Source: an uncultured Oscillospiraceae bacterium
Lineage (GTDB): Bacteria > Bacillota > Clostridia > Oscillospirales > Oscillospiraceae
Assembly (NCBI GenBank): GCA_950075865.1
Contig: CATMVA010000003.1
Span: forward strand, 62,001-126,000
Length of the DNA: 64,000 bases
Direction of reading: 5' to 3'
The translations under genes and the position numbers were made by a program. The notes beneath the pieces are model-generated. The model was not told the origin of the DNA. It ran no database searches and was given only the letters and a program-made list of their open reading frames with translations. Of the stretch, positions 50,887 to 62,823 are shown in pieces (positions within the stretch are counted from its first letter, which is position 1; every line of letters begins with the position of its first letter).

Positions 50887-51274
50887 AGAAAACAACGCCG
50901 CCGGGATGGTGGCATACATGGACGGCAAGCCGGTGGAGATATGCGAGGAGATCCCGACGCTGACAGAACTGGAGCCGGTGACAGCGGAAGAAGCCGCGGC
51001 CCGTGGAACCGTCACTGCCGAGAAACTGGCGGAGGTAACGGAAACAATCAACGCCGCATTTGCCGCCATTGTGCCGACGTTTGAGCAACTGGCCAGGTCA
51101 CTGGGGAGGTTTGCCACTGCCATTGCGCTGGGGTATGAACTGCAAAAGGCGATCCGGTGGGCAGAGGTCTACAACCCGAAACTGGCCCACTTCTACCACC
51201 ACACCAAAAAGCGGAGGATCCGCAAGAAGTACGCCAAACGGATCCTGGCCTGGTATCGGGAGGAGTTCACATGA
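50879..51274 (+). CDS. Hypothetical phage protein
   Basis: MGEENNAAGMVAYMDGKPVEICEEIPTLTELEPV...; overlaps neighbours. Confidence 0.6.
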   Translation: MGEENNAAGMVAYMDGKPVEICEEIPTLTELEPVTAEEAAARGTVTAEKLAEVTETINAAFAAIVPTFEQLARSLGRFATAIALGYELQKAIRWAEVYNPKLAHFYHHTKKRRIRKKYAKRILAWYREEFT

Positions 51275-52221
51275 ACGTATTAAGCCTCTTTGACGGTATC
51301 AGCACAGGGCGCCTGGCGCTGGATATGGCGGGGATCCAGGTTGACCGGTATTTCTCCAGCGAGGTGGAACCGGCGCCCATGGCCGTCAGCGCAAAGCGCT
51401 GGCCAGACGTGGAACAGATTGGAGATTGCCGACGGGTAAAGGCAGAGGATCTGCCCAGGATCGACCTGGTGATTGGCGGAAGCCCGTGCCAGGGGTTTTC
51501 CAGGGCGGGCAGGCACCTGAACTTTGACGACCCCCGCAGCGCCCTATTTTTTGAGTACGCAAGGGTGCTGGCGGAGGTGCGGGCCATCAATCCGGCGGCC
51601 AGGTTCCTGCTGGAAAACGTGGCCATGAAAAAAGAGTGGGAGGCGGTCATAACAGAAACCCTGGGCGTGTCCCCCATCCACATCAACAGCGCCAAGGTAT
51701 CAGCGCAGAACCGCCAGCGGGTCTACTGGACCAACATTCCGGGCGTAAAGCAACCGCCGGAAAGAAATATCAAGCTGGCGGACGTGATCGACAGGTCCGT
51801 GAACACCGCACAATATGTTGCGGGGGGGGGTATCCTATTCGACCCTACGATCCCGGAGCGGGCGCGGGCGCTTGTCACCAAGGACGGCGACAAGGTGCGG
51901 ATCCGCCAGGCAACAAAGGCGGGCTATATTGTGGCGGAGGACGGCGACGGCGTAAACCTGGCCTTTCCGACCTCTACCACCAGGCGCGGCAGGGTCATAA
52001 AGGGGAAAAGCAACGCCCTGGACTGTTCGTGTGAAGCCTGCATTTTTTACGATGGAATAATCCGCCATTTTACCATCACAGAACTGGAACGCCTCCAGAC
52101 ATTGCCGGACGGCTACACGGAGGGGATAACCCAGACGGAGCGGAAAACGGCAATCGGGAACGGCTGGACGGCGGAGGTCATAGCCTGGATATTCGGCTTT
52201 TTGAAAGAGGAAACACAATGA
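51271..52221 (+). CDS. DNA (cytosine-5) methyltransferase, canonical motif order
   Basis: VLSLFDGISTGRLAL (I), VIGGSPCQGFS (IV), FLLENVAMK (VI), QNRQRVYW (VIII), IGNGWTAEVIAWIF (X). Confidence 0.93.
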   Translation: MNVLSLFDGISTGRLALDMAGIQVDRYFSSEVEPAPMAVSAKRWPDVEQIGDCRRVKAEDLPRIDLVIGGSPCQGFSRAGRHLNFDDPRSALFFEYARVLAEVRAINPAARFLLENVAMKKEWEAVITETLGVSPIHINSAKVSAQNRQRVYWTNIPGVKQPPERNIKLADVIDRSVNTAQYVAGGGILFDPTIPERARALVTKDGDKVRIRQATKAGYIVAEDGDGVNLAFPTSTTRRGRVIKGKSNALDCSCEACIFYDGIIRHFTITELERLQTLPDGYTEGITQTERKTAIGNGWTAEVIAWIFGFLKEETQ

Positions 52222-54930: not shown

Positions 54931-55170
54931 ATGGCGACGAACTTTGACCAGATCACAGCCTCCACCGCCGCCCTGGCCACGTTCCTGGCCTCCCTCCCTA
55001 CCATGCGGGGGCCGTGGGATAAAGCATTTGACCAGGCTTTCTGCTCCACCTGCGCCGTCCAGGACTGCAACGCAGAGGGGTGCCCGTATCAAAAGGTGCG
55101 GGACGCCGCAATCCTGTGGTGGCTGGGACTGGAGGTGGGCAACAATGGCGGAAATCATCCTGGAGGGTGA
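54931..55170 (+). CDS. Small cysteine-containing phage protein
   Basis: MATNFDQITASTAALATFLASLPTMRGPWDKAFDQAFCSTCAVQDCNAEGCPYQ... Confidence 0.55.
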   Translation: MATNFDQITASTAALATFLASLPTMRGPWDKAFDQAFCSTCAVQDCNAEGCPYQKVRDAAILWWLGLEVGNNGGNHPGG

Positions 55171-56155
55171 CGCCCTGGACCGTCTGCAAGGGATCCCGGC
55201 GGAAAGTATAGACACCTGCGTGACCTCCCCGCCCTACTACAACCTGCGGGATTATGGAGAGCCTGGCCAGATCGGCAACGAGGAAACGGTGGAGGAATAC
55301 ATAGGCAAACTGGTGGAGGTTTTCCGGGAGATCCACAGGATCCTGCGCCCAGCCGGGACGCTGTGGGTCAATATCGGGGACAGCTACGCCACAAGTTCCG
55401 GCCCGCAGCCGCCGGCCAACACCAGGAACTCCACGGGGCACACGAAAAAGGCCGTGCCGGAGGGCTACAAGCGCAAGGACATGATCGGGGTGCCGTGGCT
55501 ACTGGCATTTGCCCTCCGGGCAGATGGTTGGTATTTACGCCAAGACATTATATGGGCGAAAACCAACTGTATGCCGGAGAGCGTCCGGGATCGTTGCACC
55601 AGATCCCACGAATACATTTTCCTACTGTCAAAGCAAGAACACTACTATTTCGACGCCGAGGCAATAAGCGAACCGGTGCAAGGGGCCACAACAAAGCGGC
55701 TTTTGCAGGATCTGGAGGGTCAAGCGGGATCCAGGAAACAGCAAGGGCGCGGCAGCAGGCCCATGAAGCCGGTGGCGCCACGGTTCGGCGGTGAAAAGTA
55801 TGGAGCCTCCACGGCAGAGGAAACCAGAACAAAGAGCGGGAAAGAATACCGGCCAACCGCCAGGCGCAACAAGCGCGACGTGTGGAACATCGGAACCGGA
55901 GGCTTTCGCGGTGCCCACTTTGCCGTGTTCCCGGAGAAGCTGGTGGAACCCTGCATTTTGGCCGGGTGCCCGGCTGGGGGCACTGTGCTGGATCCTTTCG
56001 CCGGGAGCGGAACCACCGGCGCCGTCGCAAAGCGGCTGGGCAGGAACTTTTTAGGCATAGAACTGAACCCGGCATATTGCCAAATGGCAAGGGAGCGGAT
56101 CGCCACCGCCCAGCAGTATGCGGAACAACTGACACTGGAGGAGATAGCGCCATGA
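55145..56155 (+). CDS. Site-specific DNA methyltransferase (SPPY type, N4-C or N6-A)
   Basis: TCVTSPPYYNLRDYG and C-terminal VLDPFAGSGTTGAVAKRLGRNFLGIELN. Confidence 0.93.
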   Translation: MAEIILEGDALDRLQGIPAESIDTCVTSPPYYNLRDYGEPGQIGNEETVEEYIGKLVEVFREIHRILRPAGTLWVNIGDSYATSSGPQPPANTRNSTGHTKKAVPEGYKRKDMIGVPWLLAFALRADGWYLRQDIIWAKTNCMPESVRDRCTRSHEYIFLLSKQEHYYFDAEAISEPVQGATTKRLLQDLEGQAGSRKQQGRGSRPMKPVAPRFGGEKYGASTAEETRTKSGKEYRPTARRNKRDVWNIGTGGFRGAHFAVFPEKLVEPCILAGCPAGGTVLDPFAGSGTTGAVAKRLGRNFLGIELNPAYCQMARERIATAQQYAEQLTLEEIAP

Positions 56156-56976
56156 AAAAGCTGGAAACCGAGCGGGTGGCCCTGTACTGCGGGGACTGCC
56201 TGTGCGAAATGGAGGCCGTCCAGGACGGTGTGGCCGACATGGTGCTGACGGATCCCCCCTACTCCTCCGGCGGACTGTTCGCTGGGGACAGAAAAGCCAG
56301 CACCCGGAAAAAGTACACAGACGCGGACTTTTCCGGCGCCGCCCGTTTTCAGAATTTCAGCGGCGACAACATGGACCAGCGCAGTTTTACCGAGTTCATG
56401 CGGCGGGTATTCATGGCCGCCAGGATGAAATCGAAGCCTGGGGCGGTCCTGGCCGTGTTCATAGACTGGCGGAACCTCCCGGCCATTACGGACGCTATCC
56501 AGTCTGCAGGCTGGGTATGGCGCGGCCTGGTGGTGTGGGATAAAGGCACCGCCCGGAATATTCCGGGGCGTTTCCGTTCCGACTGTGAGTATATCGTGTG
56601 GGGCACCAACGGGGACAAGCCCGTGGACTGGCAAGCCGGTGGATCCGCCATGCCTGGGTGCTACCACATCGGATCCGTACCGAACCAGAAAAAGAACCAC
56701 CAGACCGAGAAGCCGGTGGAACTGCTGGAGAAGATCCTGGCCATCTGCCCGGAGGGCGGCACCGTCCTGGACTGCTTTATGGGTTCCGGCAGCACCGGCG
56801 TGGCCTGTATCACCACCGGGCGCCGGTTTATCGGGATCGAACTGGACAAGGGATATTTTGAAACAGCGGCCCGGCGGATTACCGAGGAGGCCGCACAGTA
56901 CACCCTCTTTGACGCGGGGGGGGCACTAATAACCATCATTTGGTTGGCCATGACGCCCAGCCGGGCGCATGAGTAA
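56152..56976 (+). CDS. DNA methyltransferase (DPPY type)
   Basis: DMVLTDPPYSSGG; VLDCFMGSGSTGVACITTGRRFIGIELDKGYF. Confidence 0.93.
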   Translation: MKKLETERVALYCGDCLCEMEAVQDGVADMVLTDPPYSSGGLFAGDRKASTRKKYTDADFSGAARFQNFSGDNMDQRSFTEFMRRVFMAARMKSKPGAVLAVFIDWRNLPAITDAIQSAGWVWRGLVVWDKGTARNIPGRFRSDCEYIVWGTNGDKPVDWQAGGSAMPGCYHIGSVPNQKKNHQTEKPVELLEKILAICPEGGTVLDCFMGSGSTGVACITTGRRFIGIELDKGYFETAARRITEEAAQYTLFDAGGALITIIWLAMTPSRAHE

Positions 56977-57911: not shown

Positions 57912-58670
57912 GTGGCCTATGTCCATAGGCGGGTGGTAGCTGGCCAGACCGTCGAACACAGGAAAATGCAATCCTACCGGGTACACACCAAGGGGGTCAA
58001 GAGGGGGCCAAACAAGGGCACCACCACGGAGAAGCAGGCCAAGATCAACGAGAGGGTGGCCGAGGAACACCTGCGCTGGGATATAAACGCCAACTTTAAG
58101 CACAAGGACCTACACGCGGTTCTCCACTACTCTTTTCTGGACAAGCCCACCACCCTGCGGCAGATCCTGGACGATAAAGCGGAGTTCTTAAAGATCCTGC
58201 GGAAGCTGTGCCGAAAGCACAAGGTCAAGCCCAAGGTCCTGGTGGTGATCGAAACCAAGAGCATGACCAACCCACACCTGCACGTTATCATATCCAGGAT
58301 TGACACCGAGATCATCCAGGACGCCTGGGAGGCCGTCCCGCCCCAGGGGGGCTATATCAGTTTTCAGAGCCTGGACAACCGGGGAAATCATTACAAGCTG
58401 GCCCATTATCTGGTCAAGGAGAGCCGGGACACCATGCGGAGATACCGGGAGGAACTGGGGATCCGCGGGAAAAGGTACACCAAGAGCCAGAACATGGTCA
58501 AGCCCACGGTGACGTATGAAAAGGTGCCCGCCTCCTCCTGGAAGAAAGAACCCAAGGCCAGAAAGGGCGCGTACCTGTACAAGTTCGACGACGGCAGCAC
58601 CAGCCGGAGCGGGTGGCACGAAATGACGGGCTACCCATACCAGGAGTATTTCGAGGTTTTCAACGAATAG
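57912..58670 (+). CDS. Rolling-circle replication initiator-like protein (HUH endonuclease)
   Basis: HUH motif NPHLHVIISR; downstream tyrosine motif NHYKLAHYLVKES. Confidence 0.7.
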   Translation: MAYVHRRVVAGQTVEHRKMQSYRVHTKGVKRGPNKGTTTEKQAKINERVAEEHLRWDINANFKHKDLHAVLHYSFLDKPTTLRQILDDKAEFLKILRKLCRKHKVKPKVLVVIETKSMTNPHLHVIISRIDTEIIQDAWEAVPPQGGYISFQSLDNRGNHYKLAHYLVKESRDTMRRYREELGIRGKRYTKSQNMVKPTVTYEKVPASSWKKEPKARKGAYLYKFDDGSTSRSGWHEMTGYPYQEYFEVFNE

Positions 58671-58682
58671 GAGGGCAAGACG

Positions 58683-58985
58683 ATGAAAATTTACATAGCC
58701 GGGAAGATTACCGGCGACAAGCGATATAAAGCCAAGTTCGCCGCGGCGGCAAAGAACCTGCAGACGGCTGGCCATGTGGTCCTGAACCCGGCCACCCTGC
58801 CGGCGGGCCTGACGGACGCCGACTATATGCGGATCGGCATGGCCATGTTGGACACGGCGGATCAGGTCACATTCCTGCCGGACTACCAGGAGAGCGCGGG
58901 AGCCATGGTGGAAATGGACTACTGCCGCCGGATCGGAAAGCCGTGGGGTCTGTACCTGGAGCCGCAAGGGGGTGGCCGCCGATGA
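58683..58985 (+). CDS. DUF4406 (nucleoside 2-deoxyribosyltransferase-like) protein
   Basis: MKIYIAGKITGDKRYKAKFAAAAKNLQTAGHVVLNPATLPAGL...SAGAMVEMDYCRRIGKPW. Confidence 0.85.
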   Translation: MKIYIAGKITGDKRYKAKFAAAAKNLQTAGHVVLNPATLPAGLTDADYMRIGMAMLDTADQVTFLPDYQESAGAMVEMDYCRRIGKPWGLYLEPQGGGRR

Positions 58986-60622
58986 AAAGGATTTTAATAG
59001 GCGGATCTCCGTGTACGTTCTGGAGCATAGCGCAGACCAAGAACCGGGAAACAGAGGCCAGCGGAATGGGCTGGGAACTGTTCAAAAACTACCTGATCGC
59101 CCTGGAAAAATACAAGCCGGATTATTTCCTGTATGAAAATAACAAGTCTATGTCCGCAGCCATCCGGGCACAAATCACCGAGGAACTGGGCATGGAGCCA
59201 ATCCTGATAAACTCCGCCCTGGTGAGCGCCCAAAGCCGCCAGCGGCTTTACTGGGTTGGCAAGCGCAACCCAGATGGGACTTATAGCCGGGTGGAAATGG
59301 AACTGCCGGAAGATCGCGGAATACTCCTCCGGGACATTCTGGAAAGCGGAATACCCATGCGGGAAAAGGGCTATACGCTGAAAGCAAATTACGCAAACGC
59401 CGGGCCGGTCAATGGTGTGTGTGGCCGCCACTTTCCCGCACCCATGGCGGCGGAACCCGTAAATGTAACCATGCCTGTGAGGGTTGGAACCATTGAGAGC
59501 GGGACGCAGACCGAACACGACAGTAAACCGTTCAGAGTGTATAGCCCGGATGGAAAGGCGGTCACGCTCCAGGGTGAAGCTGGAGGCTATGGCGCCAAGA
59601 CCGGGCTATACGCAACGCCGATATGTATAAATCAGCTTTCGAGCGGGAAATCACGAACCGTTGACGCACACATGGGAAAGCTGGAAAACAACCTGGTGCC
59701 AAGGATAAACGACCCGAACCCGGCAAAGCAGCAGTACGACTGCATAATCCAGCCAATACGGGTGGGCGATATGCCAAACGCCAAAGGAGAAGTGAGCGGG
59801 AGCCAAAGCGGGCGAATTTATAGCGCGGACGGGAAAAGTGTACCCCTCCAGGCAAGGCCGAATGGAGGCGGAGCGGATGGAGCCTCCACGGGGCTATACG
59901 CCATACTGCTGACTGACTGCGCCGCTTGCGCCGCCGGGCGGGTTGTGGGGCGCCGAATAAATGCGGACGGCCACAGGGACGACTACAACCAGAATATCGA
60001 GCGTTTCCAGCGTTTCGAGGTGAACATCGACCCGCAAAAAACAAACTGCCTTTCCACGGTAGAAAAAGACAACATGGTGGCAATTCCCATCCAGATCAAA
60101 GAACTGGAAACCGAAAACGGAAAGATCGAGGAAATGGCCATTGAAATGCCGGACGGGAAACTGAAACCGATCTATGCTGTCTGGGACGGGCAAATCACAA
60201 TAAAAGGGAAAACGTACCCCATAAAACTGCCCGATGGGTTCTATATCATCCGAAAATTGACAGTTCTGGAGTGTATGCGCCTCCAGACAGTGCCGGAGGG
60301 CTACATATTCCCTGTTTCAGAAAGTCAGGCGTACAAAATGCTGGGCAATGGCTGGACGGTGGACGTGATCGCCCACATCATGTCCCACTTTGAGGGGATC
60401 ACCACCGAGCGGGTAGAAGTCCTATCCATGTATGACGGAATGAGTTGTGGCCATATTGCGCTGGACAAGCCGGGTGCCACCGTCGTCAGATACTACGCAA
60501 CCGAGATCGACAAGTACGCCATCAAGACGACCATGGCCAACTACCCGGACACCATCCAACTGGGGGACGCTTTCCAACTCCGGGAGGACGACTGGAGCCT
60601 GCCGCAAGTACAGGAGGGGTAA
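58982..60622 (+). CDS. Circularly permuted DNA (cytosine-5) methyltransferase
   Basis: N-terminus starts at motif IV (MKRILIGGSPCTFWS), then FLYENNKSM, QSRQRLYWVG, LECMRLQTVPEGY, MLGNGWTVDVIAHI; motif I region (VEVLSMYDGMSCGHIALDKPG...YYATEIDKYA) at the C-terminus. Confidence 0.85.
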   Translation: MKRILIGGSPCTFWSIAQTKNRETEASGMGWELFKNYLIALEKYKPDYFLYENNKSMSAAIRAQITEELGMEPILINSALVSAQSRQRLYWVGKRNPDGTYSRVEMELPEDRGILLRDILESGIPMREKGYTLKANYANAGPVNGVCGRHFPAPMAAEPVNVTMPVRVGTIESGTQTEHDSKPFRVYSPDGKAVTLQGEAGGYGAKTGLYATPICINQLSSGKSRTVDAHMGKLENNLVPRINDPNPAKQQYDCIIQPIRVGDMPNAKGEVSGSQSGRIYSADGKSVPLQARPNGGGADGASTGLYAILLTDCAACAAGRVVGRRINADGHRDDYNQNIERFQRFEVNIDPQKTNCLSTVEKDNMVAIPIQIKELETENGKIEEMAIEMPDGKLKPIYAVWDGQITIKGKTYPIKLPDGFYIIRKLTVLECMRLQTVPEGYIFPVSESQAYKMLGNGWTVDVIAHIMSHFEGITTERVEVLSMYDGMSCGHIALDKPGATVVRYYATEIDKYAIKTTMANYPDTIQLGDAFQLREDDWSLPQVQEG

Positions 60623-60625
60623 CAA

Positions 60626-60829
60626 ATGGCGTGTTTTCTGGTATATAGCCGGGCGGGAACCATCCAAGGGAAAGAGCAAACGGCGGAAAAGGCCATTGCC
60701 AGGGCGAGGGAGATTGCCCGTCGGGAGGGGTACGCAGACGTGGTAAAGCAAGGCACACGCAGCCGTCGGCGGTTTTATGAAAGCGGGCGGATAAAGACAC
60801 TAAAGAGAAAAAGGACGGTGACGGCGTAG
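60626..60829 (+). CDS. Small basic phage protein
   Basis: MACFLVYSRAGTIQGKEQTAEKAIARAREIARREGYADVVKQGTRSRRRFYESGRIKTLKRKRTVTA. Confidence 0.6.
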   Translation: MACFLVYSRAGTIQGKEQTAEKAIARAREIARREGYADVVKQGTRSRRRFYESGRIKTLKRKRTVTA

Positions 60830-61680
60830 TGGAGCGAGTGACGATCACCGAGCGGGTGGACCATTTCAACCTGGGACAGATCGCAAGGAGTGGGCAGACG
60901 TTCCGATGGATCCGGCAAGGGCCGCAGACGTACACCGTCCCAGCCGCCGGCGACTACTGCACGGCGTTCATGCCGGAGCGGGACCAGCTGAAAATCAGGT
61001 GCCGGGCGGATATGGTCAATTTCTGGCGGCGCTATTTTGGGCTATGCGATCCGTACCCGGAATACTGGGCCACCATCGACGCCTGGGCAGAAAAGGACGG
61101 CCCGGAGGCGTACCTGACCAAAGCGGCGGCATATGCCGACGGAATGGTGATCCTGCGCCAGCCAGCGTGGGAGGCCACGGCCAGCTTTGTGATCAGCCAA
61201 AACAACAACATACCCCGCATAAAGGCCATTATTGAGGCCCTATGCCGGAGGTTTGGCCACATGATCACGCTGCCAAGCGGCGGGTGGGTCTATACATTCC
61301 CGGAGCCGGAGAAACTGACCGACGCGGCCCACCTGGGCGGCCTGGGCCTGGGGTACAGGGACAAATACCTGGCCGCCCTGGCCTCTGCCGTGGCTGGTGG
61401 CAGTGTAGACCTGGAGAAGCTGGCCACGACAGACTATGAAGCCGCCAAGGAGGCCCTGAAAGCCATACCGGGGATCGGGGAAAAGGTGGCCAACTGCATT
61501 TTGCTTTACGGGCTGGGGCGCCTGGAGGCGTTCCCCGTGGACGTGTGGATCCGGCGGATATTAGAACGGGAGTTCCCGGACGGGTTCCCTGCGGGCCGAT
61601 ATGCCGGGTTTGCGGGGCTGGTCCAGCAGATCATGTTCTGCTATGAGCGGGAGAGCGGGAGGCCAACGGCGTGTATATAG
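60829..61680 (+). CDS. OGG1-like DNA glycosylase/AP lyase (HhH-GPD)
   Basis: FNLGQIARSGQTFRW; HhH-GPD IPGIGEKVANCILLYGLGRLEAFPVDVWIRRIL with Lys and Asp in catalytic positions. Confidence 0.87.
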   Translation: MERVTITERVDHFNLGQIARSGQTFRWIRQGPQTYTVPAAGDYCTAFMPERDQLKIRCRADMVNFWRRYFGLCDPYPEYWATIDAWAEKDGPEAYLTKAAAYADGMVILRQPAWEATASFVISQNNNIPRIKAIIEALCRRFGHMITLPSGGWVYTFPEPEKLTDAAHLGGLGLGYRDKYLAALASAVAGGSVDLEKLATTDYEAAKEALKAIPGIGEKVANCILLYGLGRLEAFPVDVWIRRILEREFPDGFPAGRYAGFAGLVQQIMFCYERESGRPTACI

Positions 61681-61887: not shown

Positions 61888-62823
61888 GTGAAAGTGGGAT
61901 TGATCGACGTGGACGGCCACAACTACCCAAACCTGGCGCTTATGAAGCTGTCAGCATGGCACAAAGCCAAGGGCGACACGGTGGAATGGTGGTGGTCCGA
62001 TCTGTTCCAGTTCGATCTTGTCTACATGGCCAAGGTATTCAGTGACGCATACACCAAGGACGCGCCAGAGCCTATGAACGCCGAGCGAGTGATCAAGGGC
62101 GGGACGGGGTACGCAATCACCCTGGAAAATGGCGTGGAGGTCTACCACGCCGAGCGGGACCTGCCGCTGGCGCCGGAGATTGAACACATTTACCCGGATT
62201 ATTCGCTATACCCGGAACTGACGAAAGAAACGGCTTTCGGATTTTTGACACGCGGGTGTCCACGCGGGTGCGCCTTTTGCCATGTAGCCGGGAAAGAGGG
62301 GCGGGCCAGCAAAAAGGTGGCCAATTTGTCGGAGTTCTGGAGTGGCCAGCGAAACGTGACCATCATGGACCCAAATATACTGGCCTGCAAGGATCGAGAG
62401 GACCTGCTGGCCCAGTTGGTAGCCTCCGCCGCCTATGTGGACTTCAACCAGGGACTGGACATTCGACTGATCGACAATGACGTGACGGCCCTACTGGGGA
62501 AAATGAGGGTCAAATGCCTACATTTCGCATGGGACAACCCGGCGGAGGATCTGGAGCCGTTCTTTGCTAAATTTTCGGAGCGATACGCGAGAAAAGACAG
62601 ACGCACCAAGGTGGTGTATGTTCTAACCAATTTCGGAAGTACGCAAGAGGAGGATCTGCACAGGATCTACACCCTGCGACGGCTGGGGTTTGACCCGTAT
62701 GTGATGATCTACAACAAGCAGGAAGCGCCACGGGAAACCAGGCTTTTGCAGAGGTGGTGCAATAACCGGGTCATATTCAACACCGTGCCGGACTTCCGAA
62801 ACTACGACGAAAAACTGGGATGA
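61888..62823 (+). CDS. Radical SAM domain protein
   Basis: TRGCPRGCAFCHV (CxxxCxxC); DFNQGLDIRLID. Confidence 0.88.
   Translation: MKVGLIDVDGHNYPNLALMKLSAWHKAKGDTVEWWWSDLFQFDLVYMAKVFSDAYTKDAPEPMNAERVIKGGTGYAITLENGVEVYHAERDLPLAPEIEHIYPDYSLYPELTKETAFGFLTRGCPRGCAFCHVAGKEGRASKKVANLSEFWSGQRNVTIMDPNILACKDREDLLAQLVASAAYVDFNQGLDIRLIDNDVTALLGKMRVKCLHFAWDNPAEDLEPFFAKFSERYARKDRRTKVVYVLTNFGSTQEEDLHRIYTLRRLGFDPYVMIYNKQEAPRETRLLQRWCNNRVIFNTVPDFRNYDEKLG

Follow-up and report, generated by a model that had tools for sequence, protein, structure and literature searches.

The gene considered here lies at 58982–60622 on the forward strand of the window, i.e., the whole 64,000-nucleotide stretch of contig CATMVA010000003.1 that was analysed, and encodes a protein of 546 aa; the ORF list and translation agree with the coordinates and length given in the initial annotation. 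It starts with ATG, its N-terminus reads MKRILIGGSPC and its C-terminus IQLGDAFQLREDDWSLPQVQEG. The stop codon of the upstream DUF4406 gene and the methyltransferase ATG overlap as ATGA, an overlap that had already been noted and that makes translational coupling of the two genes likely. The two genes and the motifs of the protein are as follows:

58683–58985, forward: DUF4406/nucleoside 2-deoxyribosyltransferase-like gene (Pfam PF14359, 101 bits; phrog_355; sequence)
58982–60622, forward: circularly permuted C5-cytosine DNA methyltransferase, 546 aa (ORF and translation; Pfam PF00145; rotation test)
59000–59014, forward: motif IV GGSPC, residues 7–11, with the catalytic Cys11, 6 residues from the N-terminus (invariant in the 31-sequence alignment)
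Residues G28–LF34: motif V (conserved in the family alignment)
59132–59143, forward: motif VI YENN, residues 51–54, with the catalytic Glu52 (invariant in the 31-sequence alignment)
59231–59245, forward: motif VIII QSRQR, residues 84–88 (Q84, R86 and R88 invariant in the 31-sequence alignment)
59339–60172, forward: target-recognition region, module string F-A-B-C-D (module scan; low AlphaFold2 confidence)
60251–60286, forward: motif IX, residues 424–435 (Pfam profile positions 274–320 match residues 422–468)
60344–60358, forward: motif X GNGWT, residues 455–459 (invariant in the 31-sequence alignment)
60422–60451, forward: motif I LSMYDGMSCG, residues 481–490 (family alignment, rotation test, X–I linker)
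60503–60511, forward: motif II EID, residues 508–510 (invariant in the 31-sequence alignment)
60557–60568, forward: motif III QLGD, residues 526–529, with the protein ending 17 residues further on (translation, family alignment)

All of these motifs are conserved in the family alignment, and the motif IV Cys, the motif VI Glu, the motif VIII QxRxR and the SAM-pocket residues are invariant among the 31 aligned sequences; Glu508 of motif II is expected to bind the SAM ribose. The order along the chain is IV-V-VI-VIII, the target-recognition region, IX-X and I-II-III, and the earlier claim that motif IV comes first and the I–III block last is borne out by both the motif positions and the family alignment. 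The protein scores 94.6 bits in total against Pfam PF00145 (DNA_methylase; cut-off 22), in two pieces, and belongs to this family by its conserved motifs and its catalytic Cys and Glu. Against NCBIfam TIGR00675 (dcm), it reaches 81.6 bits, below the curated cut-off of 100.65, with a match that is split because the chain is permuted. The canonical neighbour at 51268–52218 (317 aa) is as had been described and matches Pfam DNA_methylase in one piece.

Terminase large subunit, portal and minor tail genes lie downstream on the same contig, which identifies the element as a tailed prophage. In addition to the canonical C5 enzyme, the prophage carries the following genes:

55094–56152 and 56152–56973: two adjacent N6/N4 DNA methyltransferases (PF01555)
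57912–58667: REP_ORF2-G2P/rolling-circle-type replication initiator homologue, here in a tailed prophage (phrog_3584)
60826–61677: OGG/AlkA-like DNA glycosylase (TIGR00588, 145 bits at a cut-off of 398; OGG_N, HhH-GPD)
61888–62823: radical SAM protein (phrog_9298, 323 bits)

The module holds four DNA methyltransferases in total. The glycosylase, just downstream of the methyltransferases, had no PHROG match at the limit used. A protein that matches the REP_ORF2-G2P family of Pfam (L050:8014–8787) stands for a cluster of neighbouring genes present at 19 of 108 permuted loci, and the radical SAM cluster (phrog_9298) occurs in 13 of the 108, the window included. No restriction gene was recognised next to the methyltransferase among the neighbours scanned with Pfam. 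Judging by this setting, the permuted enzyme is probably an orphan methyltransferase of the prophage whose role would be to shield phage DNA from restriction.

Rotation of the chain and the site of the cut

The permutation was tested with a profile that contained canonical-order enzymes exclusively: phage enzymes from outside the permuted family, plus the canonical neighbour. When every rotation was scored, the best single contiguous domain reached 184.9 bits, compared with 96.6 bits in the native order; the optimum was obtained when reading starts at residues 470–477, which is the X/I junction, and the rotated match runs without a break across the native ends, over profile positions 2–204. 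The initial annotation had proposed that a re-permuted sequence would align to a canonical C5 profile as one continuous fold, and this is what was observed. With the canonical-order profile, the C-terminal I–III block alone scores 83.5 bits, compared with at most 10.6 bits for 2,000 shuffles, and the permuted motif order is far beyond chance. In a phmmer search of solved structures, DNMT3A/3C was matched in three pieces, with the query order IV-VIII, X, I-II. The protein can be classed as circularly permuted, since rotation restores one continuous match and both pieces belong to one gene with no separate N-terminal half; the latter point, also part of the first description, holds for the sequence upstream and for the family loci. 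Judged from its sequence, the 546-aa ORF is a real circularly permuted C5 methyltransferase.

Relatives were collected in one scan of IMG/VR (58 loci) and one scan of GTDB genome contigs (79 loci), and gene classes were assigned by block HMMs for IV-VIII, IX-X and I-III, giving 94 single-ORF permuted genes, 26 canonical relatives, 11 split permuted genes and 3 split canonical genes. The motif order and the cut are common to the 94 complete ORFs and the 11 split-gene loci, which come from IMG/VR, phage and genome records. Of the 93 permuted ORFs with a closed 5' end, 74 have an in-frame stop no more than 30 codons ahead of GGSPC, and 91 of 93 permuted loci have no extra I–III block in the fetched flanks; a second block occurs only in the window, as part of the canonical neighbour, and in L103, as part of two permuted copies. 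The latter two genes (L103:5281–8052) stand in tandem with about 60 bases between them. A duplicated-gene intermediate, with I–III twice in one ORF, was searched for among the family ORFs, and none was found.

The linker from motif X to motif I is 21–23 residues long in all members measured. In the canonical relatives, the III–IV loop, counted from the GD of motif III to GGxPC, is mostly 16 residues long, while the permuted members end at a median of 18 residues past the motif III GD and start about 5 residues ahead of GGSPC. The comparison of these positions indicates a cut at the same place, and the new ends of the permuted family, as read from the aligned chains, lie in the III–IV loop. The dN/dS of the permuted family is 0.079 for IV-VIII, 0.086 for IX-X and 0.077 for I-III; as the value for I-III is on a par with that of the catalytic block, the C-terminal block is no remnant.

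Distribution and origin of the permuted family

The permuted relatives belong to viruses and prophages of mostly gut-type Clostridia. Most hosts fall in the Oscillospiraceae, the Lachnospiraceae and other clostridial groups; Erysipelotrichaceae, Atopobiaceae and Bacteroidota are represented by single MAGs. Of 201 sampled genomes of the window host's family, 7 have a relative of the IV-VIII block, counted by the presence of this block in any motif order, as expected of a mobile gene. Plasmid searches returned three matches, none of which covered 80% of the query. The hits in the Roseobacter phage CRP-9, Vibrio phages ICP1 and 1.133, Escherichia phage ESCO8 and Pelagibacter phage HTVC309P matched the whole query in three pieces and at first sight seemed permuted, yet all of them proved canonical when read. 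The relative in phage nd4 is annotated as hypothetical, a label that may result from the splitting of the TIGR00675 match by the permutation.

Some family members deviate from the single-ORF form. Permuted genes split into two overlapping ORFs are present in L024, L025, L028, L029, L049, L050, L052, L072 and L107; the break falls mostly between VIII and IX, and in L107 between X and I. Some of these split genes recur in several contigs, and some of those from metagenomes may be sequencing frameshifts. Local lesions or sequencing errors seem to be the source of the in-frame stops in L026 and L033. Two members of about 200 aa (L053:3687–4286 and L058:3679–4269), which have no target region and have apparently lost motif VIII, are probably internal deletions.

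A tree was built by a quick search from the three blocks concatenated in canonical order. In this tree, the permuted sequences are split from most canonical sequences with an SH-aLRT of 99, and holding all permuted rows as one clade gave a tree 53 lnL units better, with p 0.944 in the AU test; a single origin of the permutation fits best and is not rejected by the AU test on this quick tree. A reversion to canonical order had been considered for five canonical sequences that fell inside the permuted clade in the free quick tree, and was set aside given the 53 lnL advantage of the constrained tree. The closest canonical relatives carry the same unusual motif IV, GGSPCTxWS, and the same target modules, and the natural reading of this sharing is that the change would have run from canonical to permuted. 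Most likely, the permutation arose once from canonical-order phage enzymes of the GGSPCT type, by a presumed route of duplication and trimming, and the permuted enzyme would later have spread through the viruses and prophages of Clostridia. Since canonical-order close relatives with common target modules exist (e.g., L101, L122 and L133), this route is testable by comparison.

Target region, predicted structure and fusions

The target region is 48 to 295 aa long in most permuted members, L053 and L058 being without one. The module scan distinguished at least 11 segment types, from which the region is assembled as a mosaic in varying combinations, mostly with 1–5 recognised segments per member, where one segment is not necessarily one full recognition domain. 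The window protein has five segments, F-A-B-C-D; other members have, for instance, F-A-C-E, H-A-D-C-E, J-A-G-I, G-A or a single I, and the same segments were found by the module scan in canonical-order relatives. The window protein thus carries several exchangeable target-recognition cassettes in one variable region, and such a modular region suggests that several short DNA sequences may be recognised, that is, that the protein may be multispecific. The initial annotation had identified the permuted enzyme correctly and had overlooked both this modular region and the prophage and virus family to which the gene belongs.

The AlphaFold2 model of the window protein (pTM 0.58) is confident in the core, whereas residues 120–370 lie below 50 pLDDT and the target region is modelled unreliably. 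For the short member L043, pLDDT was 81 and pTM 0.77, with the I–III block mostly above 90. The best Foldseek matches were DNMT3A/B, plant DRM2 and M.HhaI; the TM-scores were modest, about 0.4, because Foldseek alignments are sequential and cannot follow the permutation, and the full-chain TM-score was for this reason judged uninformative.

Six loci (L009–L012, L075 and L076) carry an XF1762/Mom-like domain of about 190 aa as a C-terminal extension, with matches to NF045478 (218 bits for L075) and to phrog_1384, "Mom-like DNA modification protein". These fusions could possibly carry out a two-step DNA modification in one chain. In addition, a 781-aa protein of an Atopobiaceae MAG (L091:5998–8340) joins a permuted C5 enzyme to a D12 (Dam-like) N6-adenine methyltransferase. 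The permutation frees the C-terminus, which may make fusions to DNA modifiers more likely.

Activity, alternatives and relation to known enzymes

The gene is very probably that of an intact orphan prophage C5 methyltransferase, permuted in the III–IV loop, with a modular target region and a single origin. The motif order, the intactness of the gene, the constraint on it, the fit of the family as one clade and the prophage setting are shown directly, whereas the activity, the targets, the benefit to the phage and the route of the permutation are what we infer. Since the linker between motifs X and I has a fixed length (21–23 residues), the chain should refold into the usual pocket, with X and I–III binding SAM and IV–VIII providing catalysis. 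Conservation of the motifs suggests that the cytosine would be flipped and then methylated by the standard mechanism with Cys11 and Glu52. The module string would probably recognise several short DNA sequences, as the multispecific enzymes of Bacillus phages do, and the enzyme would likely methylate phage DNA against host restriction.

A protein with the C5 fold that is catalytically dead, or serves only in DNA binding or regulation, is unlikely: motif VI reads ENN where ENV is usual and motif IV reads PCT where PCQ is usual, which speaks for such a loss, but the motif IV Cys, motif VI Glu, motif VIII QxRxR and SAM-pocket residues are invariant in the 31-sequence alignment, and DNMT3, with PCN in the alignment, likewise has no PCQ. 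The DNMT3 enzymes are active despite this. It is less likely still that the chain, rather than folding alone, exchanges its I–III block with the canonical neighbour at 51268 or, as a domain-swapped dimer, with another copy of itself. The split genes of the family (e.g., L052 and L049/L050) suggest that fragments can assemble, and complementation between the parts of split C5 enzymes is known (PMC5944983); against this stand the confident single-chain AlphaFold2 model of L043, the 91 of 93 permuted loci whose fetched flanks hold no other I–III block, and the short, fixed X–I linker. An RNA substrate (tRNA), as for Dnmt2, is compatible with the sequence alone, but is very improbable: the target region is large, is built of modules and recombines, as in multispecific phage DNA methyltransferases, some members are fused to Mom-like or Dam-like DNA modifiers, and modules are shared with canonical phage DNA methyltransferases. 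A further possibility, raised at the outset, is that a first gene lost its 5' part and by chance became joined to what is left of the start of a second, degraded methyltransferase gene, namely the I–III block; the tandem pair in L103 lends this some colour, as a state through which a duplication route would pass. It is already refuted by conservation across the family: the block occurs without interruption throughout, purifying selection acts on it as on the catalytic block, its SAM-binding residues are invariant, and the same junction with a 21–23 residue linker recurs in about 94 divergent ORFs.

The preferred reading, a natural C5 enzyme permuted between III and IV, can be compared with several known systems. 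Active C5 methyltransferases have been engineered at ten permutation types (PMC5944983, 2018); the same study's survey of REBASE placed the cut of all 27 natural permuted C5 enzymes in the variable region, a uniformity remarked on by the authors, and found no natural type B. Among the active laboratory permutants of M.HaeIII, M.MpeI and M.SssI (types B/C) are some whose start lies in the II–III interval, within III or in the III–IV interval (PMC5944983, its ref. 14), and M.HaeIII permutants evolved in the laboratory have start sites that include the III/IV region; the authors liken these permutants to types B/C (PMC5944983). Such start sites resemble that of the window protein, but the permutants with them are engineered or laboratory-evolved. 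M.BssHII, M.Alw26I, M.Esp3I and M2.BsaI (type H) likewise represent a natural C5 permutation with X joined to I; however, type H enzymes have their ends in the variable region and the order IX-X-I-VIII (PMC5944983), whereas the window protein has its ends at III/IV and the order IV-X-I-III. With its blocks in the order IV-VIII, IX-X, I-III, it falls outside type H, and the initial annotation, right that natural permuted C5 enzymes are known, had chosen in M.BssHII a comparator that is cut elsewhere. In plant DRM, which was also a Foldseek hit, X is likewise joined to I, and the family profile matches plant DRM contiguously over X–I (profile 284–388 to chain 177–283), which is consistent with the same X-to-I junction; however, the DRM enzymes have the order VI-X then I-IV (PMC3934875), a cut at V/VI and UBA domains and are plant-only, and the N-terminal motif IV sets the window protein apart from them.

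Among the phage families, phrog_116 is that of canonical phage methyltransferases, whereas phrog_17284 and phrog_16427, which are not annotated as permuted, align with permuted members over unbroken stretches, TRD-IX-X-I or IX-X-I-III; phrog_17284, whose profile matches a continuous TRD-IX-X-I of permuted C5 methyltransferases, is filed as unknown function. The beta-class amino-methyltransferases have an analogous order, IV-VIII then X-I-III, with N6A/N4C chemistry and an unrelated target region. The multispecific C5 enzymes of the Bacillus phages SPR, phi3T, rho11 and H2, which have the canonical motif order, resemble the window protein as phage enzymes with several exchangeable cassettes. 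Their cassette architecture is treated in references given in PMC8936443, Wilke 1988 among them. No report of a natural III/IV-permuted C5 enzyme was found in the open-licence literature, and prior recognition elsewhere is possible. Set against the patterns in PMC5944983 and PMC3934875, the family is a new natural permutation class within the C5 methyltransferase superfamily.

The family also accounts for a likely annotation gap: permuted members score under the NCBI dcm cut-off, one phage copy is labelled hypothetical and phrog_17284 is filed as unknown function. If multispecific, these enzymes would offer a compact and modular means of writing 5mC, and their ends would lend themselves to fusions. 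Tentatively, and with slightly more doubt than confidence on our part, one ancestral III/IV permutation may have given rise to a successful, widespread prophage lineage, multispecific by its shuffled target cassettes, in which the C-terminus near the SAM pocket is used to attach Mom-like or Dam-like domains; if true, this lineage would be the natural counterpart of the III/IV permutants that have until now come from the laboratory alone. The family represents a second bacterial and phage solution to permutation, one that is deeply conserved rather than accidental.
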